NCBI GenBank assembly: GCA_016790425.1
Contig: JAEUPF010000075.1
Coordinates: forward strand, 1-46,613
Length of the DNA: 46,613 nt
Reading direction: 5' to 3'
Origin: Rubrivivax sp.
GTDB lineage: Bacteria; Pseudomonadota; Gammaproteobacteria; Burkholderiales; Burkholderiaceae_C
The stretch's first letter is position 1, and each line of letters opens with the position of its first letter. The notes under the pieces are model-generated. The model did no database searches, was not told the origin of the DNA, and worked only from the letters and a program-made list of their open reading frames with translations. Shown here piece after piece: positions 11,303-27,274 of this stretch. The position numbers and the translations under genes were made by a program.

Positions 11303-11348
11303 ACGTTATGGGCGCCATCGAGCCGGCCATAGAGCCAGTTGGCGCCAT
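11303..11348 (-). promoter_or_regulatory. xsc promoter with candidate TauR operator
   Basis: On the minus strand GCCAACTGGCTCTATG ends 18 bases before a -10-like TAACGT (11308-11303). The core CTGGC (11338-11334) is separated from the hexamer by exactly 25 bases. The same arrangement is seen at tauX and tauY. The site would cover the -35 region, the usual place for an activator that helps polymerase bind. A second ATGGCGCC copy lies between site and hexamer. Confidence 0.65.
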
Positions 11349-11494
11349 TGTGGTACGCCAGCGGCCGCAGGCCGCGCCCGCCGTCGGCCGCCGCTGGACC
11401 ACTCGATTGTCCGCGCGTGGCCCAGCGCTGCGGCGCCGCGGCCGGTTACCGTAGCGGCCTCGAATCGAACCCGAACAGGAACCATCGCCCCGCC

Positions 11495-12505
11495 GTGCCC
11501 GACCTGACCCAGCTCCTGCCCGAGCGGCGCCTCCCGGTGCGCGAGGTGTTCGGCATCGACAGCGACCTCGTCGTGCCGGCGTTCGCCGAGCGCGATGACC
11601 ATGTGCCCGAGGTCGACAGCGTCTACCGCTTCAACCCCGAGGTGACGCTGGCGCTGCTGGCCGGCTTCGCGCGCAACCGCCGCGTGCTGGTGCAGGGGCT
11701 GCACGGCACCGGCAAGTCCACCCACATCGAGCAGGTGGCCGCGCGCCTGAACTGGCCCTGCGTGCGCGTCAACCTCGACGGCCACATCAGCCGGCTGGAC
11801 CTCGTCGGCAAGGACGCGGTCGTGCTGCGCCAGGGGCAGCAGGTCACCGAGTTCCAGGAAGGCATCGTGCCGTGGGCGCTGCAGTGGCCGGTGGCGCTGG
11901 TGTTCGACGAATACGACGCCGGCCGCCCCGAGGTGATGTTCGTCATCCAGCGCGTGCTCGAACGCGACGGCAAGTTCACGCTGACCGACCAGAACCGCGT
12001 CATCACGCCGCACCCGTCGTTCAGGCTCCTGGCCACCGCCAACACGGTGGGCCTGGGCAACCTGAACGGCCTGTACCACGGCGCGCAGACGCTCAACCAC
12101 GCGCAGATCGACCGCTGGAACATCGTCGCAACGCTCGACTACCTGCCGCGCGCCGAGGAGATCGCCATCGTGCTGGCGCGCGTGCCGCCGATGGCCGCCA
12201 GCGAGGCTGGGCGCCGCCGGGTCGCCGCGATGGTGGAGATGGCCCACCTCACGCGCAAGGGCTTCGCCGCCGGCGACCTCTCGACGCTGATGTCGCCGCG
12301 CAGCGTGATCACCTGGGCCGAGAACTGCGAGATCTTCGGCGACACCGCGCTGGCCTTGCGCTATTCGTTCCTGAACAAGTGCGACGAGGCCGAGCGGCCG
12401 CTCGTCGCCGAGTACTACCAGCGCTGCTTCGACGACGAGATCGACGAGTCGTTCGTGCGCGGCGCGCTCGGTTCGCTCGGTCCTGCGGACGCCGCCGGCC
12501 GATGA
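11495..12505 (+). CDS. cobS: Aerobic cobaltochelatase subunit CobS
   Basis: AAA+ ATPase subunit that, with CobT and CobN, inserts cobalt into hydrogenobyrinate a,c-diamide in the aerobic B12 pathway. From the GTG at 11495 it has 336 residues, close to the 332 I recall for Pseudomonas denitrificans CobS. The family start VREVFGIDSDLVVPAF, Walker A GLHGTGKS (68-75), IEQVAARLNWPCVRVNLD, the Walker B region ALVFDEYDAGRPEVMFVIQR and SPRSVITWAENCEIF all fit CobS. The GTG start is chosen because homology begins there; an AGGA lies about 14 bases upstream, and an in-frame ATG at 11339 would add 52 unlike residues. It is divergent from xsc and followed 10 bases later by cobT. Confidence 0.95.
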   Translation: MPDLTQLLPERRLPVREVFGIDSDLVVPAFAERDDHVPEVDSVYRFNPEVTLALLAGFARNRRVLVQGLHGTGKSTHIEQVAARLNWPCVRVNLDGHISRLDLVGKDAVVLRQGQQVTEFQEGIVPWALQWPVALVFDEYDAGRPEVMFVIQRVLERDGKFTLTDQNRVITPHPSFRLLATANTVGLGNLNGLYHGAQTLNHAQIDRWNIVATLDYLPRAEEIAIVLARVPPMAASEAGRRRVAAMVEMAHLTRKGFAAGDLSTLMSPRSVITWAENCEIFGDTALALRYSFLNKCDEAERPLVAEYYQRCFDDEIDESFVRGALGSLGPADAAGR

Positions 12506-12515
12506 GGAACGCCAG

Positions 12516-14309
12516 GTGAGCGAGGCCCGCACCCGCGCCCGCGCGCAGCAGCAGGCCGAGGAACTGTGCGCGGCGGCGATGCGGGCGCTGGCCGGCCAGG
12601 CCGATCTGCACTGGCGTGGCCAGCGGGTGTATCAGGGCCGCCGCGCCTTGCCGGCCTTCGGACCGCACCTGCAACCTTCGGCCGAGCGCGACGACTTCGC
12701 CTCGCTGCGCGGCGCCACCGACGGCATCGCGCTGCGGCTGGCGCGTTCGAACGCGGCGCTGCACCGAACGCTCGCGCCGGCGGACCCGCTCGAGCGGGCG
12801 ATCTTCGACTTGCTGGAGCAGCTGCGCGTCGAAGCGCTGGCACCGGCGGCGATGCCGGGCCTCGCGCGCAACCTGGCGCACCGCTTCCGGCGCTGGTCGG
12901 AGGCTTTCGTCGGCGCCGGCGGCACCGAGAGCCGGCGCGGCATCGTGCTGTTTGCGCTGGCGCAGACCGTGCGCAGCCGCCTCACCGCACAGCCGCTGCC
13001 CGAGCACATGGCCGACCTGATCGAAACCACGCGCGGCCGGCTCGCCGGGCACATCGGGCATGAACTCGCCGCGCTGCGGCGCCACGGCGCCGACCAGCGC
13101 GCCTTTGCGCCGCACGCGCGCGCCGTGGCGAAGAAGGTCGCTGCGCTGCTCGCGGGCGACGACGACGAGGCGGGCGCGGGCGCCGACCCGCGCGACGAAG
13201 ACGACGCGCGCAGCGGCTTCGCACGTCTGATGGGATTCGGCGGCGAGTGGGACGACGAGGCCGGCAGCGACGAGCCCGACCGCCAGCGCGACGGTCTTGC
13301 GCCCGGCGAGTCGGCAAGCCGCCGCGGGCCGCCAGACGCCGCCGGCGGCTACCGCGTCTACACCCGCGCCCACGACCGCGAGGTGCAAGCGGCGACGCTC
13401 GTTCGCGCCGCCCAGCTCACCGAGTACCGCGAGCGGCTCGACGGCCGCATCGCCGCGCAAGGGCTGAACGCGCAGCGCCTGGCGCGCCAGCTCCAGGCCT
13501 TGCTGGCCACGCCGCGCGCCGACGGTTGGGAAGGCGGGCTGGAAGAAGGGCGCATCGACGGGCGGCGCCTGGCGGCGCTTGTCGCCTCGCCCACCGAGCG
13601 GCGGCTCTTCCGGGCCGAACGCATCGAGCCGTTGCCCGATGCGATCGTCACGTTCCTCATCGACTGCTCGGGCTCGATGAAGGCGTGCATCGAGCCGGTG
13701 GCGATGATCGTCGACGTGTTCGCGCGCGCCCTCGATGCCGCCGGCATCGCGAGCGAAGTGCTCGGCTTCACCACCGGCGCCTGGAGCGGCGGCCGCGCGC
13801 ACGCCGACTGGCTGCGCGCCGGCCGGCCGCCGCGGCCCGGCCGCCTGAGCGAGCTTCGCCACCTCGTCTTCAAGAGCGCCGACACGCCGTGGCGGCGGGC
13901 ACGGCGCGGCATCGCCGCGCTGCTGAAGACCGATCAGTTTCGCGAGGGTGTCGACGGCGAGGCGGTCCAGTGGGCGCTGGCGCGCCTGCAGCGCCGGCCC
14001 GAGCGGCGCCGCATCCTGCTGGTGGTGTCCGACGGCGGGCCGATGGATACCGCGACGCTGCTGGCCAACGACGCGCACATCCTCGACCAGCACCTGCGCG
14101 ACGTGGTGCAGCGGCAGACTGTGTGGGCGAGCGCCCGGAGCGCCGGCAACGCCGAGAGCGCCGCGCTGGCCGAGATCGCCGGCATCGGCGTCGGCCTCGA
14201 CCTCAGCCCCTACTATCCGCGCTGCCAGGCGCTCGACCTCGATGCGCCGCCCGGCAACCGCGTGTTCCAGGAGATCCTCGAACTCATTGCCGGCCGGCAC
14301 CGGCGATGA
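12516..14309 (+). CDS. cobT: Aerobic cobaltochelatase subunit CobT
   Basis: 597 residues, near the 631 I recall for Pseudomonas denitrificans CobT. An N-terminal helical region with KKVAALL is followed by an acidic linker (residues about 210-265, rich in Asp/Glu) and a C-terminal von Willebrand A domain whose metal site is DCSGSMK. The later stretch LLVVSDGGPMDTATLLAND is typical of CobT. It forms the chelatase ring complex with CobS; the large subunit CobN is not in this window. The GTG start at 12516 has GAGGA 7 bases upstream. No further B12 synthesis gene is adjacent. Its product, cobalamin, would be needed by the mutase 6 kb away, but a functional link is inference. Confidence 0.94.
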   Translation: MSEARTRARAQQQAEELCAAAMRALAGQADLHWRGQRVYQGRRALPAFGPHLQPSAERDDFASLRGATDGIALRLARSNAALHRTLAPADPLERAIFDLLEQLRVEALAPAAMPGLARNLAHRFRRWSEAFVGAGGTESRRGIVLFALAQTVRSRLTAQPLPEHMADLIETTRGRLAGHIGHELAALRRHGADQRAFAPHARAVAKKVAALLAGDDDEAGAGADPRDEDDARSGFARLMGFGGEWDDEAGSDEPDRQRDGLAPGESASRRGPPDAAGGYRVYTRAHDREVQAATLVRAAQLTEYRERLDGRIAAQGLNAQRLARQLQALLATPRADGWEGGLEEGRIDGRRLAALVASPTERRLFRAERIEPLPDAIVTFLIDCSGSMKACIEPVAMIVDVFARALDAAGIASEVLGFTTGAWSGGRAHADWLRAGRPPRPGRLSELRHLVFKSADTPWRRARRGIAALLKTDQFREGVDGEAVQWALARLQRRPERRRILLVVSDGGPMDTATLLANDAHILDQHLRDVVQRQTVWASARSAGNAESAALAEIAGIGVGLDLSPYYPRCQALDLDAPPGNRVFQEILELIAGRHRR

Positions 14310-14386
14310 ACCCTGCTCACGAAGGCCAGAAAGAGGGGCGCCAGCGATGCGCCCGTGAACCCTCACACCACAAGGAGACGACCCTC

Positions 14387-15373
14387 ATGACCGGACCCCG
14401 ACTCACGCGCCTTTGGCGGCCGCTGCTCGCTGCGGCCGCCGTCCTCGGCACCGCGCTTGGCGCTGCGGCGCAGGACAACTACCCCGAGCGCGCGGTGCGC
14501 TTCGTCGTGCCCTACCCGCCCGGCGGCGGCACCGACGTCATCGCGCGCATCGTGCAGGGCCGCTTCCAGCAGACGCTCGGCCAGCCGATCGTCATCGACA
14601 ACCGCGGCGGCGGCGGCGGTTCGCTCGGCACCGACGTGGTGGCGAAGTCGGCGGCCGACGGCTACACGGTGCTGTTCACGCTCAGCTCGCACACCATCAA
14701 CCCGGCGATCTACCCGAAGCTGCCGTTCGACACCGCGAAGGACTTCGAGCCGGTCGGCACCATCGCCTCGCTGCCGCAGATCCTGGTGGCGCACCCCGGC
14801 TTCCCGGCCAGCAGCGTGGCCGAGCTGATCAAGGTTGCCAAGGAGCGCCCGGGCGCGCTGCAGTTCGCCTCGGTGGGCAACGGTTCGCCGGGGCACCTGG
14901 CCGGCGAACTGTTCAACCTGCGCACCGGTACGCAGATCACGCATGTGCCTTATCGCGGCGGCGGCCCGGCGGTCAACGACGTGCTCGGCGGCCAGGTGCC
15001 GCTGCTGTGGGTGTCGATCCCGGCGGCGGCGCAGTTCGTCAAGGCCGGGCGGCTGAAAGCGCTGGCAGTGTCCACCGTGAAGCGCAGCGTCGCCTTCCCC
15101 GATGTGCCCACCGCACAGGAAGCCGGCATCGCCGACTTCGAGGTCGACTCGTGGTACGCGATGTTCGTGCCGGCGAAGACGCCGAAGGCCGTCATCGAGA
15201 AGCTGAACCGCGCGCTCAACCAGGTGGTGGCCGACGCCGACATCAAGGACAAGCTGCTCGCGCAGGGCAGCGAAGCGGTGGGCGGCACGCCGCAGGCGCT
15301 GGGCGATGTCGTGGCGAGCGAACTGCCCAAGTGGGCCCGCCTCATCAAGCAGGCCAACATCAAGGCGGACTGA
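14387..15373 (+). CDS. Bug/TctC-family periplasmic solute-binding protein
   Basis: 328 residues with a signal peptide (RLWRPLLAAAAVLGTALGAAAQ, cleaved near residue 28). The Bug-family marks are YPERAVRFVVPYPPGGGTDVIAR, GGGGGSLGTDVVAKSAADGYTV, GSPGHLAGELFN, and VPYRGGGPAVNDVLGGQV. Such proteins bind small carboxylates. Here no TctA/TctB membrane partner is near, as is common for Bug proteins. It lies 5 bases before sauS and has a good AAGGAG ribosome site 10 bases before the ATG, so it heads a bug-sauS-sauT transcription unit. Sulfoacetate capture is the natural guess, but known sulfoacetate clusters use an MFS carrier (SauU), so this is inference. Confidence 0.93.
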   Translation: MTGPRLTRLWRPLLAAAAVLGTALGAAAQDNYPERAVRFVVPYPPGGGTDVIARIVQGRFQQTLGQPIVIDNRGGGGGSLGTDVVAKSAADGYTVLFTLSSHTINPAIYPKLPFDTAKDFEPVGTIASLPQILVAHPGFPASSVAELIKVAKERPGALQFASVGNGSPGHLAGELFNLRTGTQITHVPYRGGGPAVNDVLGGQVPLLWVSIPAAAQFVKAGRLKALAVSTVKRSVAFPDVPTAQEAGIADFEVDSWYAMFVPAKTPKAVIEKLNRALNQVVADADIKDKLLAQGSEAVGGTPQALGDVVASELPKWARLIKQANIKAD

Positions 15374-15378
15374 CGACC

Positions 15379-16854
15379 GTGGCCGGAACAGGGAACGCAG
15401 CGAACGCAGCGAACGCAGCGAACGCAGCGGGCGCAGTGAACGCAGCAGCCGCCGTGCAGGCGATGGTGGCCGAGCTGGTCGGGCGTGCGCGCGCCGCACA
15501 GCGCGTCGCCGAGGGCTACGACCAGGCGCGCGTCGACGAGTTGGTGGCCGCCGCCGGCTGGGCGATCCTCGAGCCGGCGCGCAACCGCGCCCTGGCCGAG
15601 CAGGCGGTGGCCGAGACCGGCATCGGCAACGTCGAGGACAAGGTCCGCAAGAACCACCGCAAGACGCTCGGCCTGCTGCGCGACCTGGCCGGCCGCAAGA
15701 CGGTGGGCGTGATCGCCGAGCAGCCCGAGCTCGGCCTGGTCGAGATCGCACGGCCGGTGGGCGTCGTCTGCGCGGTGACGCCTTCGACCAATCCGGCCGC
15801 GACGCCCGCCAACAAGATCATCAACGCGATGAAGGCGCGCAACGCGGTCATCGTCGCGCCGTCGCCGAAGGGACACGGCACCGCGGCGCGGCTGGCCGCG
15901 TTCATCCACGCCGAGTTCGACCGCATCGGCGCGCCACGCGACCTGGTGCAGGTGCTGCCGGCGCCGGTGAGCAAGGCCTCGACGGCCGAGCTGATGCGCC
16001 GCTCGGACCTGGTCGTCGCCACCGGCTCGCAGGCCAACGTGCGCGCCGCGTACACCTGCGGCACGCCCGCGTTCGGCGTCGGCGCGGGCAACGTGGCCTC
16101 GATCATCGACGAGACGGCCGACGCCGATGCGGCGGTGGCGCTGCTGATGCAGTCCAAGACCTTCGACAACGCGACGAGCTGCTCGTCGGAGAACAGCCTC
16201 GTCGTCGTCGCCGCGGTGCGCGAAGCGGTGCTGGCGGCGCTCGGCCGCCACGGCGCGGTGCTGCTGGACACCGCGCGCAAGGCGGCGCTGCAACGGCTGA
16301 TGTGGGACGGCGAAGGGCATCTGTCGCCGGCGGTGATCGGACAGTCGGCGCGAACGATCGCCGAGCGCGCGGGCATCGACGGCATCGCCAGCCTGGACGA
16401 GCTGCGCGCGCTGGTGGTCGAGGAAAGCGGCTTCGGCGCCGAACACCCGTTCTCGGGCGAGAAGCTGAGCCCGGTGCTGACGCTGTACACCGCGGCCGAC
16501 TTCGACGCGGCGGTGCAGACGGTGCGCCGCCTCTACGACTGGCAAGGCGCCGGCCACTCGGTGGGCCTGCACAGCCGGCGCGAAGAGCGCGCGCTGCGGC
16601 TGGGCCTGACGCTGCCGGTGGCGCGCGTCATCGTCAACCAGGCGCATGCCATCGCCACCGGCGGCAGCTTCGACAACGGCCTGCCCTTCTCCTTGTCGAT
16701 GGGCTGCGGCACCTGGGGCCGCAACAACTTCTCCGACAACATGAACGTGCGGCACTACATGAACGTGACGCGCATCTCGCGCACGGTTGCCGAGCGTGTG
16801 CCCAGCGAGCAGGAGATCTTCGGCGCCTACTTCGCCAGGTACGGGCGCGGCTGA
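15379..16854 (+). CDS. sauS: Sulfoacetaldehyde dehydrogenase, CoA-acylating
   Basis: Reduces sulfoacetyl-CoA to sulfoacetaldehyde, feeding Xsc. From the GTG at 15379 it has 491 residues. Conserved segments match acylating aldehyde dehydrogenases and in particular SauS: GNVEDKVRKNHRKTLGLLRD, VTPSTNPAATPANKIINAMK, VATGSQANVRAAY, GVGAGN, and the catalytic Cys268 in FDNATSCSSENS. The C-terminal ATGGSFDNGLPFSLSMGCG also fits. The first 30 residues are an Asn/Ala repeat encoded by 9-bp tandem repeats, so translation may really start at a later GTG (15437). It begins 5 bases after the Bug gene and ends 2 bases before sauT, so these are coupled. Confidence 0.92.
   Translation: MAGTGNAANAANAANAAGAVNAAAAVQAMVAELVGRARAAQRVAEGYDQARVDELVAAAGWAILEPARNRALAEQAVAETGIGNVEDKVRKNHRKTLGLLRDLAGRKTVGVIAEQPELGLVEIARPVGVVCAVTPSTNPAATPANKIINAMKARNAVIVAPSPKGHGTAARLAAFIHAEFDRIGAPRDLVQVLPAPVSKASTAELMRRSDLVVATGSQANVRAAYTCGTPAFGVGAGNVASIIDETADADAAVALLMQSKTFDNATSCSSENSLVVVAAVREAVLAALGRHGAVLLDTARKAALQRLMWDGEGHLSPAVIGQSARTIAERAGIDGIASLDELRALVVEESGFGAEHPFSGEKLSPVLTLYTAADFDAAVQTVRRLYDWQGAGHSVGLHSRREERALRLGLTLPVARVIVNQAHAIATGGSFDNGLPFSLSMGCGTWGRNNFSDNMNVRHYMNVTRISRTVAERVPSEQEIFGAYFARYGRG
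15394..15447. repeat. 9-bp tandem repeat at the 5' end of sauS
   Basis: AACGCAGCG is repeated four times perfectly at 15394-15429 and continues as two degenerate copies to 15447. It encodes Asn-Ala-Ala units. Unit length is a multiple of three, so copy-number change would lengthen or shorten the protein without a frameshift. Confidence 0.92.
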
Positions 16855-16856
16855 CG

Positions 16857-18425
16857 ATGGACACCGTGCGCAGCCTCGTCGAGCGCGCGGCGGCCGGGCG
16901 GCCGCACGCGACCTACGCGCTCGCCACCGAAAGCCCCGGCAGAACGATCGACTTCCGCGGCCTGGCCGCCTCATGCCGGCGCATCGCGGCGCTGCTCGAA
17001 GCCTACGGGGTCGCGCCCGGCGAGACCGTCTCGCTGGTGATGCCCAACGGCCTGGCCACGCTGCGCCTGCTGCTGGGCGCGATGTGGGCCGGCCGCTGCG
17101 TCAACCCGGTGAACCTGCTGGCACAGGAAGAGCAGATGCGCTACGTGCTCGAGCACTCCGACTGCCGGCTGGTCGTCGCCGCGCCGCAGTGGGAAGAGCG
17201 CGTGCGCTCGATGCTGGCCGGCATCGAGCGGCCCGACGGACGAGCGGTGCGGCTGCTCGTCGTCGACGCCGACGCCGAGCGGCTGCCGGGCGAGGACGGC
17301 GGTCTCGATGCGACCGAGGGTGCCGATGCCGCCGCCGCGACCGCGGCGCCCGACGTCGCGGCGCCTGCTCCCGCGGCCCTCGCGCTGCTGATGTACACCT
17401 CGGGCACCACCGGCCGGCCCAAGGGCGTGATGCTGACGCAGGCCAACCTCGCTGCGAACGCGCAGGCGATCGCCCGCGAGCACGCGCTCGGCCCCGACGA
17501 CCGCGTGCTCGGCGTGCTGCCGCTGTACCACATCAACGCCTTCGCGGTGACGATGCTGGCGCCGCTCGCCTCGATGGGCAGCGTGGCGATGGCGCCGCGC
17601 TTCTCGGCGGCGCGCTTCTGGGCCCAGGCGATCGACGCCCGCTGCACGTGGATCAACGTGGTGCCGACGATCGTCTCGTTCCTGCTCGAAGGCGAGGCGC
17701 CGCCGGCCGCGGCCCTGGCGCGCCTGCGCTTGTGCCGCTCGGCTTCGGCGGCGCTGCCGCCCGAGCACCTGCGCGCCTTCGAGAGCAAGTTCGGCATCGG
17801 CGTCATCGAGACGATGGGCCTCACCGAGACCGTGGCGCCGTCGTTCTCGAATCCGCTCGAACCGAGCCAGCGCAAGGTGGGCGCGGTCGGCCGCGCCTCG
17901 GGCTGCGAGGCACGCGTCGTCGATGCGGCGCTGCAGCCGCTGCCCGACGGCCAGACCGGCGAACTCGTGATCCGCGGCCCCAACGTGATGACGGGCTACT
18001 ACAAGAACCCCGAGGCCACCGCCGCGGCCTTCACGCCGGACCGGTGGCTGCGCACCGGCGACCTCGGCCACCGCGACGGCGACGGCTTCTTCTTCGTCAG
18101 TGGCCGCATCAAGGAGCTCATCATCAAGGGCGGCGAGAACATCGCGCCGCGCGAGATCGACGAAGTGCTGCTGCGGCACCCGGCGGTGCTCGACGCCGCC
18201 GCAGTGGGCATCCCCGACCGCCACTACGGCCAGGAGATCCTCGCCTGCGTCGTGCTGCGCGAAGGCGCGGCGTGCAGCGAACAGGCGTTGCGCGAGTTCT
18301 GCGCGCCGCTGCTCGGCCGCTACAAGACGCCCAAGCTCTTCCGCTTCGTCGCCGAACTGCCGCGCGGACCTTCGGGGAAGGTGCAGCGGCTGAAGCTGGC
18401 CGAAGGATTCGCCGCCGGGCAGTAG
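16857..18425 (+). CDS. sauT: Sulfoacetate-CoA ligase (AMP-forming)
   Basis: Acyl-CoA synthetase of the ANL superfamily, 522 residues. The P-loop is MYTSGTTGRPKGVML, followed by the motif ETMGLTETVAPSF, the hinge region LRTGDLGHRDGDGFFFVSGR, IKELIIKGGENIAPREIDEVL, and the C-terminal catalytic Lys in GPSGKVQRLKL. On its own this would be only an acid-CoA ligase. Its place 2 bases behind sauS, with xsc in the same island, supports sulfoacetate activation to sulfoacetyl-CoA. A loop near residues 140-175 is lengthened by an Ala/Asp-rich low-complexity stretch. The ATG at 16857 lacks a strong ribosome site, suggesting translational coupling to sauS. Confidence 0.87.
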   Translation: MDTVRSLVERAAAGRPHATYALATESPGRTIDFRGLAASCRRIAALLEAYGVAPGETVSLVMPNGLATLRLLLGAMWAGRCVNPVNLLAQEEQMRYVLEHSDCRLVVAAPQWEERVRSMLAGIERPDGRAVRLLVVDADAERLPGEDGGLDATEGADAAAATAAPDVAAPAPAALALLMYTSGTTGRPKGVMLTQANLAANAQAIAREHALGPDDRVLGVLPLYHINAFAVTMLAPLASMGSVAMAPRFSAARFWAQAIDARCTWINVVPTIVSFLLEGEAPPAAALARLRLCRSASAALPPEHLRAFESKFGIGVIETMGLTETVAPSFSNPLEPSQRKVGAVGRASGCEARVVDAALQPLPDGQTGELVIRGPNVMTGYYKNPEATAAAFTPDRWLRTGDLGHRDGDGFFFVSGRIKELIIKGGENIAPREIDEVLLRHPAVLDAAAVGIPDRHYGQEILACVVLREGAACSEQALREFCAPLLGRYKTPKLFRFVAELPRGPSGKVQRLKLAEGFAAGQ

Positions 18426-18503
18426 GCCGGAGGGCCGAAGGGCCGGAGGGCCGGAGGGCCGGAGGGCCGGAGGGCCGGAGGGCCGGAGGGCCGGTGGGCC
18501 GGC
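18425..18503. repeat. 8-bp tandem repeat starting at the sauT stop codon
   Basis: About ten head-to-tail copies of GGGCCGGA (one copy GGGCCGAA, the last two GGGCCGGT and GGGCCGGC) run from the last base of the sauT stop codon. The rest of the gap before the convergent TRAP gene (18504-18749) holds only the nested inverted repeat at 18571-18691; I see no gene in it. Confidence 0.92.
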
Positions 18504-18570
18504 GAGCTTGGCGAGGAGACGTTCGCCCGCATCGCCCCTGCCCCCTCGTCCAGCACAGACGCCGGTGCCC

Positions 18571-18691
18571 GCCAAGGACGCCGGGGGGTGGGCGCAGCGA
18601 GGGTAAGGGGGCATTCGGGCGCCCTGCGAGCGCAGCGAGCCGGGCGCCCGAAAGAGGACACGAGCAGAGCCGACCCCCCGGCGTCCTTGGC
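18571..18691. repeat. Nested inverted repeat, 121 bp, between convergent operons
   Basis: Outer arms GCCAAGGACGCCGGGGGGT (18571-18589) and its exact complement (18673-18691) are 19 bp and perfect. An inner pair, TTCGGGCGCCC (18614-18624) and GGGCGCCCGAA (18642-18652), is 11 bp and perfect. The element sits between sauT and the last TRAP gene, where transcription from both sides meets. It could end transcription in both directions or be a small mobile palindromic element. It has no coding content. Confidence 0.85.
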
Positions 18692-18749
18692 GCGCGCAAA
18701 CCTGGCCACAAGGGCCACGATCAGGCTTCCGATGTCCCTAACGCCCCGA

Positions 18750-20069: not shown

Positions 20070-20139
20070 CGGGCCCTCCGGGTGCTGCGCACCGGCCCCC
20101 CGAGGGGGCATGGGCGCCTTCGCAACGGCCGGGCGGCGC

Positions 20140-20691
20140 TCATGCCTGGAACTCCGGGCTGCGCTCGTCGGGCCAGTGGCCCGTGCCGAGCGCGTGCACG
20201 CACTTGCAGACCTCGCTCGTGCCCTGCACCAGCAGCAGCGCGCCGGCCAGCGGCATCGCCAGCCGGAAGGGCCATGTGATCGGCTGCCAGGCGCTGCTGA
20301 CGAAGGTCTCGTTGGTGACGAAGGCCTTCCAGAAGTAGCCCCAGCCGGTGAAGACGAACACCGACACGAAAGGCACGAAGATCAGCGCGTAGCAGGCGAT
20401 GTCGACCGCCGCCTGGCGGCGCGGCGGCCAGCGCTCGTAGTACATGTCGGTGCGCACGTGGCCCTTGCGCTGCAGCGTGAAGGCGCCGCCGAGCATGAAG
20501 AACATGCCGTACAGCATGAACGTCAGGTCGTAGGCCCACTGCGTGGGCGCATTGAAGACGTAGCGGGCCACCACCTCCCACGTCAGGCCCAGCACCAGCG
20601 GCACCAGCATCAGGCAGGCGAGCCGGCCCGACCAGACGGCGATCGGGTCGAGCCGGCGCGCCGTGCGCGCCCAGACGGAATCGGCGCTCAT
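20140..20691 (-). CDS. TRAP transporter small permease (DctQ type)
   Basis: 183 residues with four predicted membrane segments (about 20-40, 55-75, 95-115, 140-160), the size and pattern of DctQ subunits. The motif LTWEVVARYVFNAPTQWAYD at the end of the first helix and FMLGGAFTLQRKGHVRTDMYY are family hallmarks. ATG at 20691 overlaps the DctP stop as ATGA, so it is translationally coupled to the binding protein. It works with the DctM permease 70 bases downstream. Confidence 0.94.
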   Translation of the reverse strand: MSADSVWARTARRLDPIAVWSGRLACLMLVPLVLGLTWEVVARYVFNAPTQWAYDLTFMLYGMFFMLGGAFTLQRKGHVRTDMYYERWPPRRQAAVDIACYALIFVPFVSVFVFTGWGYFWKAFVTNETFVSSAWQPITWPFRLAMPLAGALLLVQGTSEVCKCVHALGTGHWPDERSPEFQA

Positions 20692-21803
20692 CCCGCGGCG
20701 TTCGGCGACGAGGTGCCGAGGTTGAAGTACAGGCCGTTGATCTTGTTCCAGTACGGCACCACGGTCTTGGCGAACGCGCGCTGCGACTCCAGCACCTCCT
20801 TGAACAGCGCGTTGCGCCCGGCCTCGCGGTCGTAGATGGTGTTGGTGGCCTTGATGAAGGCGGGAAAGATGTCGGCCGGCGTGTCGTGGATCGTCACCTT
20901 GAACTCGGTCTTCAGCCGCGCCACCGCCTGCGCGTTGCGCCAGACGTTGTAGGTGTAGGTCTCGGTCATCGAGGCCATCGCCGCGGTCTGCACGATCTCC
21001 TTCAGGTCGGCGGCGAGCTTGTTGTAGGTGCCGCGGTTGAAGATCACCTCGCCCACGTCGCTGCTCTGGTGCAGCCCTTGCAGGTAGTAGTGCTTGAAGA
21101 CGGTGTGGAAGCCGAGCGCCAGGTCGTCGGCCGGGCCGATCCACTCCGCCGCGTCGAGCACGCCGCGCTGCGCCGCCGGCACGATCTCGCCGCCGGGCAT
21201 CGCCACCGCGTTGACGCCGATCTCCTTGAAGATCTCGCCCACCAGGCCGGGCGGGCAGCGGTACTTGAGTTTGCGGAAGTCGGCCAGCGAGGCGATCGGG
21301 TTGCGGAACCAGCCCAGCGGATCCGGGCCCATCGGCTGGATGAACACCGGCTCGATGTCGACCTTCAGCGCCTCCTGGTAGAACTTCCTGAACAGCGCAT
21401 TGCCGCCGCCCTGGAAGATCCAGGCCACGTGCGAGAGCTGGTCCATCCCCGTGCCGCCGCCGGCGGCAGGGTTCGAGAACAGGCCCGCGGCGGTGTTCTT
21501 GCCCGACCAGTAATGCGTCCACGCGTAGCCGGCGTCGACGACGCCCTTGTCCACCGCGTCCATGATCTCGAAGGCGGCGACGACGGCGCCGTCGGGCAGC
21601 ATCTCCAGTTTCAGGCGGCCGTTGGACATGCGGTCGACGCGATCGGCGAAGCGCTTGAGCAGGTCGAAATAGATGCTCGAGCTGGGTACCGCGGTCTGCA
21701 CCTTCAGGCGCGCCGTGGTCTGGGCGCGCGCCGGCACCATCGCGGCGGCGGTGAACGCGGTGGCGCCGGCGCCCAGCGCCAGCCTTCGATTCATTCGGGT
21801 CAT
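20688..21803 (-). CDS. TRAP transporter periplasmic binding protein (DctP, 2-oxoacid/TakP-like)
   Basis: 371 residues. The N-terminus MNRRLALGAGATAFTAAAM carries an arginine pair and an Ala-rich segment ending in ARA, a Sec or Tat-like signal peptide. Conserved segments ADRVDRMSNGRLKLEMLPDGAVV, FDLL, and EWIGPADDLALGFHTVFKHYY place it in the TakP/mannitol-chloroaromatic branch of DctP proteins, which bind carboxylates. ATG at 21803 overlaps the GMC dehydrogenase stop as ATGA. If the neighbouring dehydrogenase is isethionate dehydrogenase, this protein would be the IseK-like isethionate receptor; the ligand cannot be read from sequence. Confidence 0.93.
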   Translation of the reverse strand: MTRMNRRLALGAGATAFTAAAMVPARAQTTARLKVQTAVPSSSIYFDLLKRFADRVDRMSNGRLKLEMLPDGAVVAAFEIMDAVDKGVVDAGYAWTHYWSGKNTAAGLFSNPAAGGGTGMDQLSHVAWIFQGGGNALFRKFYQEALKVDIEPVFIQPMGPDPLGWFRNPIASLADFRKLKYRCPPGLVGEIFKEIGVNAVAMPGGEIVPAAQRGVLDAAEWIGPADDLALGFHTVFKHYYLQGLHQSSDVGEVIFNRGTYNKLAADLKEIVQTAAMASMTETYTYNVWRNAQAVARLKTEFKVTIHDTPADIFPAFIKATNTIYDREAGRNALFKEVLESQRAFAKTVVPYWNKINGLYFNLGTSSPNAAG

Positions 21804-23425
21804 GTCCTTGTCTCCTCGACGTTCGCGGGTTGGAAGGTGGGAGCGCTCGCCCCCCGGGTCGTCGCGGGGCGCGCACGGGCCGCGTCCTCGCGAATCAGTT
21901 CGACGGCCTTCTCGGCGATGGCGACGATCGGCGCGTTGGTGTTGCCCGACACGAGCGTGGGCATCACCGAGGCGTCGACGACGCGCAGGCGCTCGAGACC
22001 GTGCACGCGCAGCCGCTCGTCGACGACGGACAGCGCATCGCGGCCCATCTTGCAGGTGCCGCTGGGGTGGAAGATCGTGGCGCCGTGGTTGCGGCAGAAC
22101 TCGAGCAAGGCCGCGTCGTCGGCGGCACCCGGGCCGGGCTTCACCTCGCGCGCGACCAGCGGCCGCATCGGCGCGCTGGCCGCGACGGCGCGCGCCGCCT
22201 TCACCGCGGCCACTGCGGTGCGCCGGTCGAGTTCGGTGCTGAGGTAGTTCGGTTGCATCCCGGGCGGCTCGGACGGGTCGGCCGAGCGGATGCGCACGTG
22301 GCCGCGCGAAGTGGGTCGAAGCTGGCACACCGACAGCGTGGCGACGTGGAACTGGATGTCGGGCCTGGCGGCGCTCTGCGGCAGCGCGCGCATGAAGCAG
22401 CCGCCCTGGTTGATGCCCACCGCCAGCGGCCCGCGGCGCGACAAGAGCCACTGCGCGCCGATCTTCGCGCGCCCGAACCACGAGTTCAGCTCGTCGTTGG
22501 TGGTGATCGGCCGCGTGCACTCGAAGATCAGGCGGATCTGCAGATGGTCCTGCAGGTTCTCGCCGACGCCCGGCAGCGCGTGGCGCAGCGCGACGCCGTG
22601 GCTCGCCAGCAGCGCCGGCGCGCCGATGCCCGACAGCTGCAGCAACTGCGGCGACTGCAGCGCGCCGGCGCACAGCAGCACTTCGCCGCGGCAGCGCGCT
22701 TCGCGCTCGACGCCGCCTTGCCGATAGCGCACGCCGACCGCGCGCCGGCCTTCGAAGACGATCGAGGTGGCCATCGCTTCGCATTCGATGCCGAGGTTCG
22801 GCCGCCGGCGCGCGGGCTTCAGGTAAGCCACCGCGGTGCTGCAACGCCAGCCGTCGTGCGTGGTGAGCTGGTAGTAGCCGGCGCCTTCCTGCTGCCGGCC
22901 GTTGAAGTCGTCGTTGCGCGGCACGCCCAGCGTGCCGGCGCCGGCGATGAAGGCCTCGATCAACGGGTGGCGCGCGCCGATGTCGGAGACCTTCAGCGGC
23001 CCGTCGCCGCCATGGAATGCATCGGCGCCGCGCTGGTTGCCCTCGCTGCGGCGGAAGTACGGCAGCAGGTCGTCGTAGCCCCAGCCCGGGCAGCCCGCGG
23101 CCGCCCAGGCGTCGTAGTCCTCGCGCTGGCCGCGGATGTAGATGAGGCCGTTGATCGAGCTGGAGCCCCCGAGCGTCTTGCCGCGCGGCCAGTAGATGCG
23201 CCGGCCGTTCATGTTCGGGTCGGGGTCGGTCTCGAAGCACCAGTTCAGGCGCCGGTCCCACATCGTCTTGCCGTAGCCGATCGGCAAGTGGATCCACAAC
23301 GAGCGGTCCGGCGGGCCGGCCTCCAGCAGCAGCACGCGCGTGGCGGGGTCTTCGCTCAGGCGGCCGGCGAGCACGCAGCCCGCCGAGCCGGCGCCGACGA
23401 CGATGTGGTCGAACTCCGCGGTCAT
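21800..23425 (-). CDS. GMC-family FAD-dependent alcohol dehydrogenase, candidate isethionate dehydrogenase
   Basis: 541 residues. The FAD motif is VVGAGSAGCVLAGRLSE at the N-terminus, followed by RGKTLGGSSSINGLIYIRG, and the active-site His segment ATIFHPSGTCKMG, ending SGNTNAPIVAIAEKA. It is choline-dehydrogenase-like. Such enzymes oxidise a primary alcohol to an aldehyde. I recall that the isethionate dehydrogenase IseJ of Cupriavidus is a membrane-linked enzyme of this type and that some bacteria pair it with a TRAP importer. Here it leads an overlapping operon with a complete TRAP transporter in a sulfoacetaldehyde-converging island, so oxidation of isethionate to sulfoacetaldehyde is a strong inference. 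Choline or another alcohol remains possible. Start MTAEFDHI is chosen from homology. Confidence 0.88.
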   Translation of the reverse strand: MTAEFDHIVVGAGSAGCVLAGRLSEDPATRVLLLEAGPPDRSLWIHLPIGYGKTMWDRRLNWCFETDPDPNMNGRRIYWPRGKTLGGSSSINGLIYIRGQREDYDAWAAAGCPGWGYDDLLPYFRRSEGNQRGADAFHGGDGPLKVSDIGARHPLIEAFIAGAGTLGVPRNDDFNGRQQEGAGYYQLTTHDGWRCSTAVAYLKPARRRPNLGIECEAMATSIVFEGRRAVGVRYRQGGVEREARCRGEVLLCAGALQSPQLLQLSGIGAPALLASHGVALRHALPGVGENLQDHLQIRLIFECTRPITTNDELNSWFGRAKIGAQWLLSRRGPLAVGINQGGCFMRALPQSAARPDIQFHVATLSVCQLRPTSRGHVRIRSADPSEPPGMQPNYLSTELDRRTAVAAVKAARAVAASAPMRPLVAREVKPGPGAADDAALLEFCRNHGATIFHPSGTCKMGRDALSVVDERLRVHGLERLRVVDASVMPTLVSGNTNAPIVAIAEKAVELIREDAARARPATTRGASAPTFQPANVEETRT

Positions 23426-23529
23426 CGCGCCATCGGGACAGCCGCAGTCGCCCGGCGGCGCAGTGACGATCGCGCATCGCGACGCCACAATGAAGACCGG
23501 TGCTCGATCATCCGAGGAGGAGAGGGAAC

Positions 23530-23976
23530 ATGAACAGCATCTCGAACAGCCCCGGTTTCCTGCCGTTCGCGCTCGCCGCCGTCGTGCTGTGCATCAACCT
23601 GCTGTGGCTGTGGGCGCACAGCGGCTCGGCGCGCAACACCGCAAAGGCAACGCCGAACGCCGAAGACGCCGCCCTCTTCGGCGGCACGCTGGCCGACATC
23701 GACCCGCCGCCCATCGCGCGCGTGCTGCGCGCGCACGCCAATGCCCAGGCCAGCATCTACCCGTTCCTGGTGCTCGGCGCCCTGTACCTGGCAGCCGAGG
23801 GCGGCCGCCTGCCGGCGCTCATCTACTGCTCGGTCTTCTGCGCCGCCCGGGTGATCCACAGCTTCGCCTACCTCGCGGGCAGGCAGCCCTGGCGAACGAT
23901 CGCGTTCGTCACCGGTTTCGCTGCCACAGGCGTGCTCATGGTTCATGTTCTTTGGCTGCTGCTGGCACCGAAGTGA
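23530..23976 (+). CDS. MAPEG-family membrane protein
   Basis: 148 residues with four hydrophobic segments. It fits the MAPEG family (glutathione transferase-like membrane proteins): NTAKATPNAEDAALFGGTLADIDPPPIARVLRAHANAQ with the characteristic R-x-x-x-A-x-x-N-x-x-E/Q-like helix (RVLRAHANAQASIYPFLVLG), then a YLAGRQPWRT loop. ATG at 23530 has GAGGAG about 10 bases upstream; the longer frame from 23500 is not supported. It is divergent from the GMC dehydrogenase, with about 100 bases between. Substrate unknown; a role in sulfonate metabolism is not indicated. Confidence 0.88.
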   Translation: MNSISNSPGFLPFALAAVVLCINLLWLWAHSGSARNTAKATPNAEDAALFGGTLADIDPPPIARVLRAHANAQASIYPFLVLGALYLAAEGGRLPALIYCSVFCAARVIHSFAYLAGRQPWRTIAFVTGFAATGVLMVHVLWLLLAPK

Positions 23977-24078
23977 CGTGCCCGCGCTACCGCCGCATCG
24001 AGTGGAGTCCATCGTCTCCTGCGAAGGGCGTGGTCCGTTCAGGTAGTTTGCCGTTTCGATCTTCGTGCGCAGAGGGTG

Positions 24079-24879
24079 TCAACCCGCAAGCGCGACGGCT
24101 GCGCGCAACACGGTCAGCGCCGACACCACCATCAGCAGGTCGAGCACGCGGCGGCGGAAAGCCTCGGGCGACACGCGGCCGAAGAGCCGCCGGCCGATCT
24201 CGATGCCCGCCAGCATCGCCGGCGCCAGCCACAGCGCCCAGCGCCAGGTCTGCGGGCCCAGCAGCGCCGTGGCGTCGCTCGCAGCGGCCGTCGACTGCGC
24301 CAGGGCCCACGCCAGCGCGTACAGGTCGGTGAAGAGGAACAGCGCGATCATCGTCGCGCGCATCGCCGCCGGCGGCAGCGCGGAAGCATTGAGCAGCATC
24401 GCCACCGCGATGCCGCCGATGGCCGCCAGGCCGTTGACGAGCCCCGAGACGAGCCCCGTGGCCAGGCGAACCCTGGGCGTCGCTTCGAGGCCGAGCGCGA
24501 AGCCGCGGCGCTGCAGCACCGCTGCGGCCAGCAGCAGCAAGCCCACCAGCAGGCGCAGCGGCGTCTCGGGCAGCCAGGCCAGCAGCGCGATGCCCAGCGG
24601 AATGCACACCGCGTTGCCGAGCACGAGCCAGCCGAGCCAGCGGCGGTCGACGTCGCGCGCGGCAGCGGGGATCTGGCGCAGGCTCGCCAGCACTTCGAGC
24701 ATGAAGATCGCCGGCACCACCTTGGCCGGCGACAGCACGAGCGACAAGCCGGCCACCGAGACGGCCGAGAAGCCGAAGCCGGCGAAGCCGCGCACGATGC
24801 CGGCGGCCAGCACCGTGGCGAGGCTGAACGCCAGCAGCGCCGGCGGCAGCGGTGGCGACAGCAGCCCTTCCCCGTTCAC
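24079..24879 (-). CDS. TauE/SafE-family sulfite/organosulfonate exporter
   Basis: 266 residues with eight hydrophobic segments and the repeated glycine-rich motif of TauE/SafE proteins: GIVRGFAGFGFSAVSVAGL near residue 30 and GLVSGLVNGLAAIGGIAVAM near 150. These carriers export sulfite, sulfoacetate or similar anions. Here it lies 52 bases behind tauY, likely in one transcript, where it could remove the sulfite that Xsc releases. The GTG at 24879 is the predicted start; no strong ribosome site is visible and a slightly later start is possible. Confidence 0.9.
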   Translation of the reverse strand: MNGEGLLSPPLPPALLAFSLATVLAAGIVRGFAGFGFSAVSVAGLSLVLSPAKVVPAIFMLEVLASLRQIPAAARDVDRRWLGWLVLGNAVCIPLGIALLAWLPETPLRLLVGLLLLAAAVLQRRGFALGLEATPRVRLATGLVSGLVNGLAAIGGIAVAMLLNASALPPAAMRATMIALFLFTDLYALAWALAQSTAAASDATALLGPQTWRWALWLAPAMLAGIEIGRRLFGRVSPEAFRRRVLDLLMVVSALTVLRAAVALAG

Positions 24880-24931
24880 GTCGCGGTGCGCGCGCGCGTC
24901 ACGTCCGGCACGAGCCGGCGGCTCGCCTCAT

Positions 24932-26365
24932 TCACAGCACCTCGTCACGCAGGTGGTACCAGCGATAGAGCACGCGCTGCCCGAAGCGGCGAAACGGCGC
25001 CAACGCGCTCGAGCGCACGGCGCCGAGGACGTTCGGGTATTCGAGCGGCGAGTCGTAGATCGGCAGCGCGAACGCGGCCTCGGTGCGGCCGGCGATGCGC
25101 TGGGCCATGCGCCGGCCGGCATGGGCCGAGAACGAGACGCCGTTGCCCCCGTAGCCCAGCGCGTAGAAGACGCTTTGCCGCGGGTCGGGCTGCGCGATGC
25201 GCGGCATCATGTCGTGGCTCACGTCGACCCAGCCCCACCAGGAGTGGTCGATGCCGATGCCCTTCAAGGCCGGGAACTTGCGGTGCAGGCCTTCGACCAG
25301 CACCGCCATGTGGCGCGGGTTGGGCGCGTCGGCGCCGGTGATCGAGCTGCGGCTGCCGATCTGCACGCGGTTGTCGGGCAGCCGGCGGTAGTAAAAGCGC
25401 AGCGTGCGCGTGTCGGTGATGACCTGCGTGGTGACGAAGTTCGTCGCCGCCAGTTCGCCTGCCGTCAGCGGCCGCGTGACGAGCGAGTTCGACAGGATCG
25501 GCATGATCTTCGCGCGCAGGCTCGGGTGCAGGCCGTTGCTCGTGTAGCCGCCGGTGGCGAAGGCCACCGCGCGCGCGCGCACGGTGCCCCCGGGCGTCTT
25601 CAGGCCGTGCACGCCGTTGCGGGTCTCGCAGCCGATGACGGGGCTGGCGGGATGCACCCTCACGCCGAGCCGGCGCGCCGCGCGCAGGTAGCCGAAGGCG
25701 AGCTTCAGCGGGTGCACGCCGATGCCGTCGGGCTCGTGCAGCGCACCGAAGGTCTCGGCGTCGTCGACGTAGCGCTTGCGGACCTCATCGGCCGCGAGGA
25801 TGTGCGTGTCGTAGCCGAACACCTCGCGCATCACCCGCGCCTCGTTGCGCAGGAACGCCATCTTCTTCTCGCGGTGGGCGAGGTAGAGATGGCCGCCGGG
25901 CTGCGGCTCGCACTCGGGGAACTCGGCCACGAGGGCCTTGAAGGTCTCGAAGCCGCTGCGGATCTCGGCGTCGAGCTTCAGCGCCGTGGCCTTGCCCCAG
26001 CGCTGGATCCACTGCGAACGGTACAGCCGCCCGCTCGCGTTCTGGCCCTGGCCGCCATTGCGGCTGGTGCAGCCCCAGGCGCTGCGGTTGGCCTCGAGCA
26101 CCGTGGCGCGGATGCCGTGCTCGCGCGCGAGGAAGAGCGCCGTGGCCAGGCCCGTGAAGCCCGAGCCGACGATGACGACGTCGGCATCGACATCGCCCGT
26201 GATCGGGCCGTCGTCCTCGGGCGGCGTGCCGCCGGTGGCCACCCAGTAGGTGGGCGCGTAGTCGGTGCCGCAGCCGGGGTGCGGCGCGGCGAGCGGGTCG
26301 TACCGGGGGTCGTAGGGCGAGCGGCAAGGCGTGGTCGCGGCGGCGAAGGGCTGCGTCATGTCCAT
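24932..26365 (-). CDS. tauY: Taurine dehydrogenase large subunit (FAD-dependent oxidoreductase)
   Basis: 477 residues of the DAO-type glycine/D-amino-acid oxidase fold. The FAD site is ADVVIVGSGFTGLATALFLA near residues 62-81, followed by SRNGGQGQNASGR, and the C-terminal FAD segment YALGYGGNGVSFSAHAGRRM. Such a fold alone means only an amine-oxidising flavoprotein. Pairing with a SnoaL/NTF2-like gene on the other side of a symmetric promoter, with tauABC, tauR and xsc nearby, identifies it as TauY, which oxidises taurine to sulfoacetaldehyde and ammonia with a cytochrome-type acceptor. Start is ATG 26365 (a second ATG is two codons later); ribosome site is weak. No taurine-pyruvate aminotransferase gene is in the window. 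Confidence 0.83.
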   Translation of the reverse strand: MDMTQPFAAATTPCRSPYDPRYDPLAAPHPGCGTDYAPTYWVATGGTPPEDDGPITGDVDADVVIVGSGFTGLATALFLAREHGIRATVLEANRSAWGCTSRNGGQGQNASGRLYRSQWIQRWGKATALKLDAEIRSGFETFKALVAEFPECEPQPGGHLYLAHREKKMAFLRNEARVMREVFGYDTHILAADEVRKRYVDDAETFGALHEPDGIGVHPLKLAFGYLRAARRLGVRVHPASPVIGCETRNGVHGLKTPGGTVRARAVAFATGGYTSNGLHPSLRAKIMPILSNSLVTRPLTAGELAATNFVTTQVITDTRTLRFYYRRLPDNRVQIGSRSSITGADAPNPRHMAVLVEGLHRKFPALKGIGIDHSWWGWVDVSHDMMPRIAQPDPRQSVFYALGYGGNGVSFSAHAGRRMAQRIAGRTEAAFALPIYDSPLEYPNVLGAVRSSALAPFRRFGQRVLYRWYHLRDEVL

Positions 26366-26417
26366 CGTGCGTCTTTCGCAGTGCATCCGCGTGGGCGCGG
26401 CGTGGCTCGGTGGTGCG

Positions 26418-26461
26418 AGGCTAGGCGGGCGGCCCGCCGCTTCGTAGCGCCAGTTGGCGGC
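26418..26461 (-). promoter_or_regulatory. tauY promoter with candidate TauR operator
   Basis: On the minus strand GCCAACTGGCGCTACG (26459-26444) has its core CTGGC at 26453-26449, then 25 bases, then the -10-like TAGCCT (26423-26418). It mirrors the tauX promoter on the other strand in sequence and spacing. Confidence 0.65.
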
Positions 26462-26598
26462 GATCCTTGAGGCCAGCCGCGCGGCGCCGCGCGCGGCGCC
26501 GCGCGCGGGCCCATTTGCACGCACTGCACAGTGCACGCGCTGGCCCATTCAAATGGCGGCAACTGGCGCTACGCGCCCGGCCGCGGCGCGCCTAGTCT
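26421..26598. repeat. Long dyad in the tauY/tauX divergent control region
   Basis: The 345-base gap between tauY and tauX (26366-26710) has no gene. It is organised as an inverted repeat: CTAGGCG, 15 bases, then CGTAGCGCCAGTTG on the plus strand from 26421, and the same pattern inverted at the right side ending near 26598. Between the arms lie two copies of GCGCGGCGCCGCGC-type palindrome (about 26477-26508) and a perfect 14-bp palindrome GCACTGCACAGTGC (26521-26534). The arms hold the two operator/promoter units. Confidence 0.8.
26552..26598 (+). promoter_or_regulatory. tauX promoter with candidate TauR operator
   Basis: AATGGCGGCAACTGGCGCTA on the plus strand from 26552 resembles the xsc site at 19 of 23 positions over the full stretch to 26574. 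Its core CTGGC (26563-26567) is 25 bases before the -10-like TAGTCT (26593-26598). Confidence 0.65.
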
Positions 26599-26710
26599 TC
26601 GCCGCAACAGGCCGCGCCGACACGCGGCCGGCCACGCTCGCGCAGCGACGGCGAACAGCGACGGCGAAGCGACCGCCTCCAGCGCCAACATCGATGAGGG
26701 AGACCCACCC

Positions 26711-27109
26711 ATGGCAGCGCCACCCAGCGCGGTGACCACCGCCTTCCTGCTCGACTTCGCGGCCGCCTGGAACCGCCACGACATCGAGGCGCTGATGCGC
26801 TTCATGACCGACGACTGCGTCTTCCACGCCGTGGCCGGCCCCGACCTCCACGGCCGCAGCTTCAGCGGCCGCGCCGCGGTGCGCGAAGGCTTTGCGCTCG
26901 CCTGGCAGACCTTCCCCGACGCGGCCTGGCGCGACCCCGAGGCCTTCGTCTGCGGCGACCGCGGCGTCCTGGAGTCCACCTTCACCGGCACCAAGGCCGA
27001 CGGCACGCGCGTCGAGGCGCGCATGGTCGACGTCTTCACCTTCCGCGACGGCAGGATCGCGGTGAAGAACGCCTATCGCAAGGACCGCCCGCCGCTGCCG
27101 CCACGCTGA
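26711..27109 (+). CDS. tauX: Taurine dehydrogenase small subunit (SnoaL/NTF2-like)
   Basis: 132 residues of the SnoaL/NTF2-like fold: FAAAWNRHDIEALMRFMTDDCVFHAVAGP, GRAAVREGFALAWQTFPDAAW, and VDVFTFRDGRIAVKNAYRK. I recall that TauX is a small protein of this class encoded beside TauY. The ATG at 26711 has GAGGGAG 6 bases upstream. It is divergent from tauY across a symmetric control region, with tauA next on the same strand after 165 bases. Its contribution to the enzyme is poorly known. Alone the fold could also be an isomerase-like protein; the identification rests on context. Confidence 0.78.
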   Translation: MAAPPSAVTTAFLLDFAAAWNRHDIEALMRFMTDDCVFHAVAGPDLHGRSFSGRAAVREGFALAWQTFPDAAWRDPEAFVCGDRGVLESTFTGTKADGTRVEARMVDVFTFRDGRIAVKNAYRKDRPPLPPR

Positions 27110-27155
27110 CCCGCCGGCCGCTTCGAGCCGCTGCCGACCTCGGGCAACCCCGCAT

Positions 27156-27193
27156 CGGCTGGCCCCATGGAAGCAGGTGTTTGGATCTATCGT
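27156..27193 (+). promoter_or_regulatory. tauA promoter with a variant of the candidate TauR site
   Basis: CGGCTGGCCCCATGG at 27156-27170 differs from the xsc site CAACTGGCTCTATGG only by transitions. Its CTGGC (27159-27163) is 24 bases from TATCGT (27188-27193), a reasonable -10. The remaining bases up to tauA hold only the ribosome site. Confidence 0.5.
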
Positions 27194-27274
27194 CAACGCG
27201 CAATCGCGCTCACAGTGAGGTTCCACCGAGAGCGGGTGCCTCGACCACCCGCGCCGCAACCCGAGGAGACAACC

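Follow-up and report, generated by a model that had tools for sequence, protein, structure and literature searches.

The best described relatives of the system considered here are the taurine regulons controlled by TauR, a regulator of the MocR type. In Rhodobacter capsulatus, TauR binds direct repeats of the sequence CTGGACYTAA (Wiethaus 2008, as cited in PMC5320631). According to the portions of the comparative study of Suvorova & Rodionov (2016; PMC5320631) available to us, betaproteobacterial TauR regulons are mostly as in the alphaproteobacteria, whose list of members includes tauABC, tauXY, xsc, and tauE, and ackA is missing from the betaproteobacterial regulons. In Sinorhizobium meliloti, TauR is needed for taurine use, and the accessible part of PMC4254191 supports the view that it activates PtauA, a TauR-dependent and taurine-induced promoter. 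The rhizopine system likewise pairs a MocR-type regulator with direct-repeat boxes, which are 11 bp long and 13 bp apart, hence of period 24, in the part of PMC10107442 at hand. Here we analyze a stretch of 46,613 nucleotides from a Rubrivivax sp. genome (contig JAEUPF010000075.1; the whole stretch is called the window) and propose, with a probability of about 0.93, that a motif shared by the xsc, tauY, and tauX promoters corresponds to one half, the promoter-proximal one, of a TauR operator that has two boxes and is placed at a fixed distance from the −10 element. The system is clearly a new instance of an already known type of switch and not a new type.

The motif, G(C/G)CAACTGGC(G/T)CTA(C/T)G, had been picked out in front of xsc, tauY, and tauX in a preliminary description of the window, and the 16-mer GSCAACTGGCKCTAYG is indeed present without mismatch at all three places, at 11328–11343 (minus strand), 26443–26458 (minus strand), and 26558–26573 (plus strand). 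Each of the three has a second CTGG exactly 23 bp farther upstream (position 11361 at xsc, 26476 at tauY, and 26540 at tauX), and we therefore read the sites as TauR direct repeats in which the distal box has diverged after CTGG. All three operators have the form CTGG...CTGGnnCTA, with distal boxes diverged at YTA, and the proximal box, CTGGCKCTA, agrees with CTGGACYTA at all positions except the two after CTGG. The predicted elements are the following.

11353..11361, minus strand: predicted distal TauR box of xsc, CTGGCGTAC, diverged, with its CTGG 23 bp upstream of the proximal box
11330..11338, minus strand: predicted proximal TauR box of xsc, CTGGCTCTA, box score 15.9
11303..11308, minus strand: putative −10 element of xsc, TAACGT, at +30 from the proximal box
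26468..26476, minus strand: predicted distal TauR box of tauY, CTGGCCTCA
26445..26453, minus strand: predicted proximal TauR box of tauY, CTGGCGCTA
26418..26423, minus strand: putative −10 element of tauY, TAGCCT, at +30
26540..26548, plus strand: predicted distal TauR box of tauX, CTGGCCCAT
26563..26571, plus strand: predicted proximal TauR box of tauX, CTGGCGCTA
26593..26598, plus strand: putative −10 element of tauX, TAGTCT, at +30

Like the R. capsulatus operators, these sites combine CTGG..YTA direct repeats with taurine genes and a MocR regulator; they differ in the CTGGCKCTA sequence of the proximal boxes and in the diverged distal box. The preliminary description had set the site apart from the Rhodobacter direct repeat, a distinction that overlooked the second CTGG and that is further undone by some relatives, whose repeats come close to CTGGACYTAA and likewise have a period of 23. 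The period in the window is 23 bp, and no value for R. capsulatus was found in the available portions of the literature surveyed. The rhizopine boxes have an unlike sequence, AAAGYGGYTCT, and serve another pathway (PMC10107442, same part). The divergent distal boxes of tauY and tauX are separated by a 63-bp gap (26477–26539) made up of a GC-rich repeat and an inverted repeat around TGCACAGTGCA; the corresponding gap in eight divergent relatives is 8 to 28 bp. A 12-bp tandem repeat downstream of the xsc box, noticed by eye, was set aside, being by eye missing at tauX and tauY.

Exactly 25 bases separate CTGGC from a TAnnnT hexamer at xsc, tauY, and tauX alike, as had been claimed; counted from the first base of CTGG, each hexamer begins at +30. 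The window contains 691 CTGG words on both strands, and common words of this kind in a GC-rich genome might be thought to produce such an arrangement by coincidence, the more so as looser forms of the pattern outnumber their controls little or not at all. In 200,000 random triples drawn from the 691 words, however, none had a TAnnnT offset in common, in agreement with the earlier judgment that fixed spacing is improbable by chance; a common CTGG offset was met in a fraction of 9.5e-5 of the draws. As to the three independent promoters 15 kb apart of the preliminary description, tauX and tauY are divergent neighbors with cores 110 bp apart, so that the three promoters occupy two places 15 kb apart.

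We also scanned the genome to which the window belongs (4,313,487 bases in 178 contigs, 82% complete). Across all these bases, GSCAACTGGCKCTAYG has no exact match beyond the three window sites; one mismatch adds 3 places, and two mismatches add 44. With up to two mismatches allowed, its 50 places fall below the 74 of a backward-pattern control, so it is the exact form alone that is special, and the rarity of the motif genome-wide holds in that form and not in the looser one. The combination of box and −10 element, CTGGNNCTA-N21/22-TANNNT, has four genome matches versus two for the backward control; three are the xsc, tauY, and tauX sites, and the fourth, on contig C172, lies inside a long open frame. 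The pattern CTGGN19CTGGNNCTA occurs without mismatch at eight genome places, three of them the window sites, and was rejected as a genome pattern because it is too loose at up to one mismatch (125 places versus 85 for the control). Finally, CTGGNCYNANNGAWNG-N7-CTGGNNCTA with up to three mismatches finds seven places (control, 2), again including the three window sites; three of the other four (L131, L132, and L133), considered as additional regulon members, lie in stretches of long open frame and were discarded. No further regulon member was found with these patterns of 23-bp period among the places looked at, which did not include the last of the four (L113), and no genome search with a 22-bp period was made. 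Together with the recurrence of the sites at tau genes in other genomes, described next, the absence of further exact matches, the composition of the box-plus-−10 matches, and the random triples refute the coincidence reading.

Relatives were sampled as the best 80 of 186 loci with TauY homologues. These carry mostly Burkholderiales names, with five from Oceanimonas, Zobellella, or Oceanisphaera and several metagenome-assembled genomes (MAGs) named to phylum only; many are near-copies of each other (Pandoraea, Comamonas, and Caballeronia). Their TauY homologues are 69 to 86% identical, and most loci have a tauX homologue near tauY. A position weight matrix was trained on 32 sites from these loci, with the window excluded and an effective number of 15.6 after near-copies were down-weighted. 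In the window, this relatives-only matrix scores the tauY site at 35.6, tauX at 34.1, and xsc at 13.9, and the next position at 5.8; in other loci of the same genome (146,821 bases in overlapping, pattern-selected stretches), no further match exceeded 8. We then counted sites scoring at least 14 within 400 bases upstream of a gene, leaving out genes whose match starts past residue 40 or that have fewer than 250 bases upstream. Such sites precede 38 of 78 scorable tauY genes, 37 of 74 tauX, 18 of 24 tauA, and 5 of 49 xsc; the tandem tauX-tauY order places the tauY start inside the pair and lowers the tauY count, and the regions upstream of tauA and xsc had no part in the training. Ten column-shuffled matrices gave 0 to 1 upstream matches each. 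The matrix has 145 matches in total, 44 of which are not upstream of tauX, tauY, tauA, or xsc. A stricter pattern with up to one mismatch, applied to 148 genomes including the window's own, finds 12 places in 8 genomes (backward control, 3). In these 80 loci, many tauX, tauY, and tauA genes and a few xsc genes are preceded by the repeat, and in Comamonas and Delftia the tauX/tauY repeat is nearly canonical (for example, CTGGACCTAACGATTG-N7-CTGGTTCTAACG). The distal box CTGGCCTCA is found unchanged at tauY in six loci (L021, L022, L024, L025, L028, and L031).

The relatives share the promoter geometry as well. Among 82 nonredundant sites, 59 have a TAnnnT that starts at +30 (44 sites) or +31 (15 sites), each of the other offsets from 20 to 44 being represented by 0 or 1. 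This position means that the proximal box abuts or overlaps the −35 region: with TAnnnT taken as the −10 element (−12 to −7), the boxes would span about −65 to −57 and −42 to −34, and the hexamers found at 17-bp spacing (TATGGC, TACGAA, and TACGCG) are poor −35 elements. The earlier suggestion that the box covers the −35 is supported by these positions, and the predicted geometry is that of an activator standing in for the −35. No statement of a fixed −10 distance was found in the available portions of PMC5320631. By analogy with work on TauR and other MocR proteins, a TauR dimer would bind both boxes head to tail and would be switched by taurine together with pyridoxal 5′-phosphate; the switched dimer might then recruit or activate sigma-70 RNA polymerase at xsc, tauX, and tauY, and, with weaker support, at tauA, the proximal box replacing or overlapping the poor −35.

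One gene of the window is the candidate for the regulator.

30121..31650, minus strand: candidate tauR, encoding a MocR-type protein (GntR, Pfam PF00392, and aminotransferase-like, Aminotran_1_2, PF00155), start codon uncertain

Its product is 58 to 76% identical to MocR proteins in many tauXY loci; the nearest other match in its own genome is 31% identical. In a tree that kept 50 of 56 rows after removal of near-copies, with a long-branch warning for L140, L074, and L049, and that was built without the R. capsulatus and S. meliloti TauR sequences, the protein belongs to a clade of 26 rows, every one of which has 23-bp sites, and its nearest neighbor is that of a Rubrivivax MAG (L051; support 99/96). 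The proposal of one activator, most simply TauR, is supported by operators that match the TauR repeat and by the presence in the window of a MocR from a tauXY-associated clade. Divergent from the MocR gene is an enoyl-CoA hydratase gene (31801–32583; Pfam ECH_1), which we take to be BadI-like. The sites might instead belong to another regulator that also acts on sulfonate genes, such as one linked to the sulfoacetate-like genes that lie between xsc and tauXY, and the MocR protein might then serve otherwise, for example at this adjoining BadI-like gene; in line with that, the region between the two divergent genes holds no TauR-type site among the top 14 matrix matches of the window. We consider this very improbable, although no search aimed at other regulators accompanying the sites was made, because the motif fits the TauR direct repeat as published (PMC5320631, in the portions available), because the loci that hold these sites also contain MocR homologues from the clade of the window protein, and because the operator period tracks the MocR tree, as detailed below. 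In a Caballeronia plasmid locus (L141) with a 54% identical MocR near xsc, no good box pair was found.

At tauA, the preliminary description had taken CTGGC at 27159–27163 as the core and TATCGT, 24 bases further on, as the −10 element. Both are literally present on the plus strand; the assignment of core and −10 is not upheld, since 27159 fits a distal box and TATCGT lies largely inside the candidate proximal one.

27159..27167, plus strand: predicted distal TauR box of tauA, the core of the preliminary description, CTGGCCCCA, score 13.3
27181..27189, plus strand: candidate proximal TauR box of tauA, TTGGATCTA, 22-bp period, weak
27211..27216, plus strand: tentative −10 element of tauA, CACAGT, at +30 from the proximal box

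Read as a proximal box, 27159 lacks a distal one (the position 23 bp upstream scores −36.4); read as a distal box, it has a score over the 17-column box that is reached by five positions in the window, both strands and itself included. The proximal candidate at 27181, TTGGATCTATCG, takes in the first five of the six TATCGT bases and is weak, with a score of 3.9 at a distance of 22 versus −14.6 at 23. The pair scores 14.2, compared with a maximum of 3.8 among six shuffles, and CACACT or GACACT stands at about +31 in some relatives' tauA promoters. On sequence grounds, tauA is probably a weak member of the TauR regulon, and the sites are graded in strength from strong (tauX and tauY) through intermediate (xsc) to weak (tauA). 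In seven Pandoraea loci (L053, L054, L059–L061, L066, and L068), it is the tauA operator that has the 23-bp period, and the tauY operator is weaker and 22-bp.

Several observations speak against the TauR reading or narrow it. The training sites were chosen with a CTGG-pair seed at period 23, which biases the matrix to that form; the candidate tauA −10 lacks its first T; and the best NCBIfam model for the window MocR is PdxR (338.9 versus a cut-off of 320). The low frequency of sites at xsc in the 80 loci is matched in the 148-genome set, in which 2 of 28 scored xsc loci (L171 and L179) and 5 of 24 tauA homologue loci (L143, L146, L153, L154, and L156) reach 14, and several tauA homologues that are 82 to 84% identical (L147–L151 and L165) have no site. 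These counts omit the window's own rows (L142 and L167) and L177, which is too short for scoring, and two rows (L152 and L195) are unreliable, the gene being cut at a contig end. Moreover, L146, L154, L156, and L171 duplicate L051, L022, L031, and L023, respectively, all four loci of the 80, so the new cases are limited to L143 and L153 for tauA and L179 for xsc. With so few homologue loci reaching 14, the presence of tauA or xsc does not by itself imply the operator, and near relatives seldom have a TauR-type site at xsc. It could accordingly be argued that the functional sites are those at tauX and tauY, the matches at xsc and tauA being decayed or due to chance, and the weak boxes point the same way (the xsc distal box scores 2.4, compared with 15.5 and 17.0 for those of tauY and tauX, and the tauA proximal box is low as noted). 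We regard this as unlikely: xsc combines the exact 16-mer, the CTGG at −23, and TAACGT at +30, similar sites with like distal boxes occur at xsc in L021 and L023, and the tauA pair exceeds every shuffle.

The box period is 23 bp at xsc, tauY, and tauX and 22 bp at tauA. When it was left free between 14 and 32, a period of 23 was recovered in 102 of 136 best pairs and 22 in 23 of 136. On the TauR tree, a period of 22 (8 rows) requires 2 changes versus a shuffled mean of 7.6, and a period of 23 (33 rows) requires 4 versus 14.4, with 0 of 500 shuffles as low in either case; six further rows received no call and three were mixed, near-copies favor clustering, and some branches are long. The operator period clusters on the tree. 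Operators of 22-bp period occur in L040, L049, L069, L074, L157, L162–L164, L166, and L140, whose MocR proteins are 42 to 49% identical to that of the window; those of L092 and L094–L099 are 49 to 51% identical and yet go with a period of 23, so that distance alone does not explain the split. Sinorhizobium medicae pSMED01 (L140), with genes placed by tblastn, provided a sequence comparison with the S. meliloti system. As in the window, its MocR homologue adjoins tau genes (homologues of tauA, tauB, tauX, and tauY), and the best box pair upstream of tauA is followed by a −10-like TATTTC at +30; unlike in the window, the period is 22, and the regulator is 43% identical. For spacing, this row was scored as none, since TATTTC does not have the final T that the −10 rule requires. 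No S. meliloti operator sequence was found in the accessible part of PMC4254191. The available portions of PMC5320631 describe box distance as generally constant within an orthologous group, with slight variation possible, and neither these nor the surveyed portions of the related literature yielded a statement on a clade split of the period. We tentatively suggest, at slightly less than even odds, that Burkholderiales and Aeromonadaceae have a rigid TauR promoter geometry (proximal box to −10 fixed at 30–31 bases) with 22- and 23-bp registers that follow the TauR phylogeny.

The taurine genes of the window were assigned as follows.

9392..11212, minus strand: xsc, sulfoacetaldehyde acetyltransferase (TIGR03457, 1067.8 bits)
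24079..24879, minus strand: tauE-type sulfite exporter (Pfam PF01925, TauE), downstream of tauY on the same strand
24932..26359, minus strand: tauY, FAD-dependent large subunit of taurine dehydrogenase (Pfam DAO; named by homology and context)
26711..27109, plus strand: tauX, SnoaL-like small subunit (Pfam SnoaL_2; named by homology and context)
27275..28285, plus strand: tauA, taurine-binding protein (TIGR01729, 353.7 bits, cut-off 304)
28376..29164, plus strand: tauB, taurine ABC transporter ATPase (best match NF008421, 320.3 bits, below the cut-off of 357)
29103..30047, plus strand: tauC, taurine ABC permease, start undefined (best match NF007545, 305.9 bits, below the cut-off of 342)

Between xsc and tauXY lie an aldehyde dehydrogenase gene (15400–16854; Pfam Aldedh) and then a frame resembling an AMP-forming ligase (about 16857–18425). 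As a pair, these resemble sauS and sauT of the sulfoacetate pathway, which would share Xsc with taurine. An acetate kinase-family gene (8310–9395) has a conserved frame that starts at the xsc stop codon and overlaps the end of xsc, and the two may therefore form one operon. In this, the window departs from the betaproteobacterial regulons without ackA of PMC5320631, as far as its available portions go.

These results assign a taurine regulon to this Burkholderiales-like genome and sharpen the TauR operator model (two boxes, a 22- or 23-bp period, and a −10 at +30/31), which then predicts promoters besides sites. A protein of the TauR clade that scores above the NCBIfam PdxR cut-off is also a naming hazard, as automatic annotation may call such proteins PdxR. 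If the proposed registers are real, the box register of the head-to-tail MocR dimer would be specific to each clade, and register switching in a MocR activator would be directly testable; the tauA promoter of the window, 22 bp within a 23-bp clade, would then be a natural mis-register promoter.

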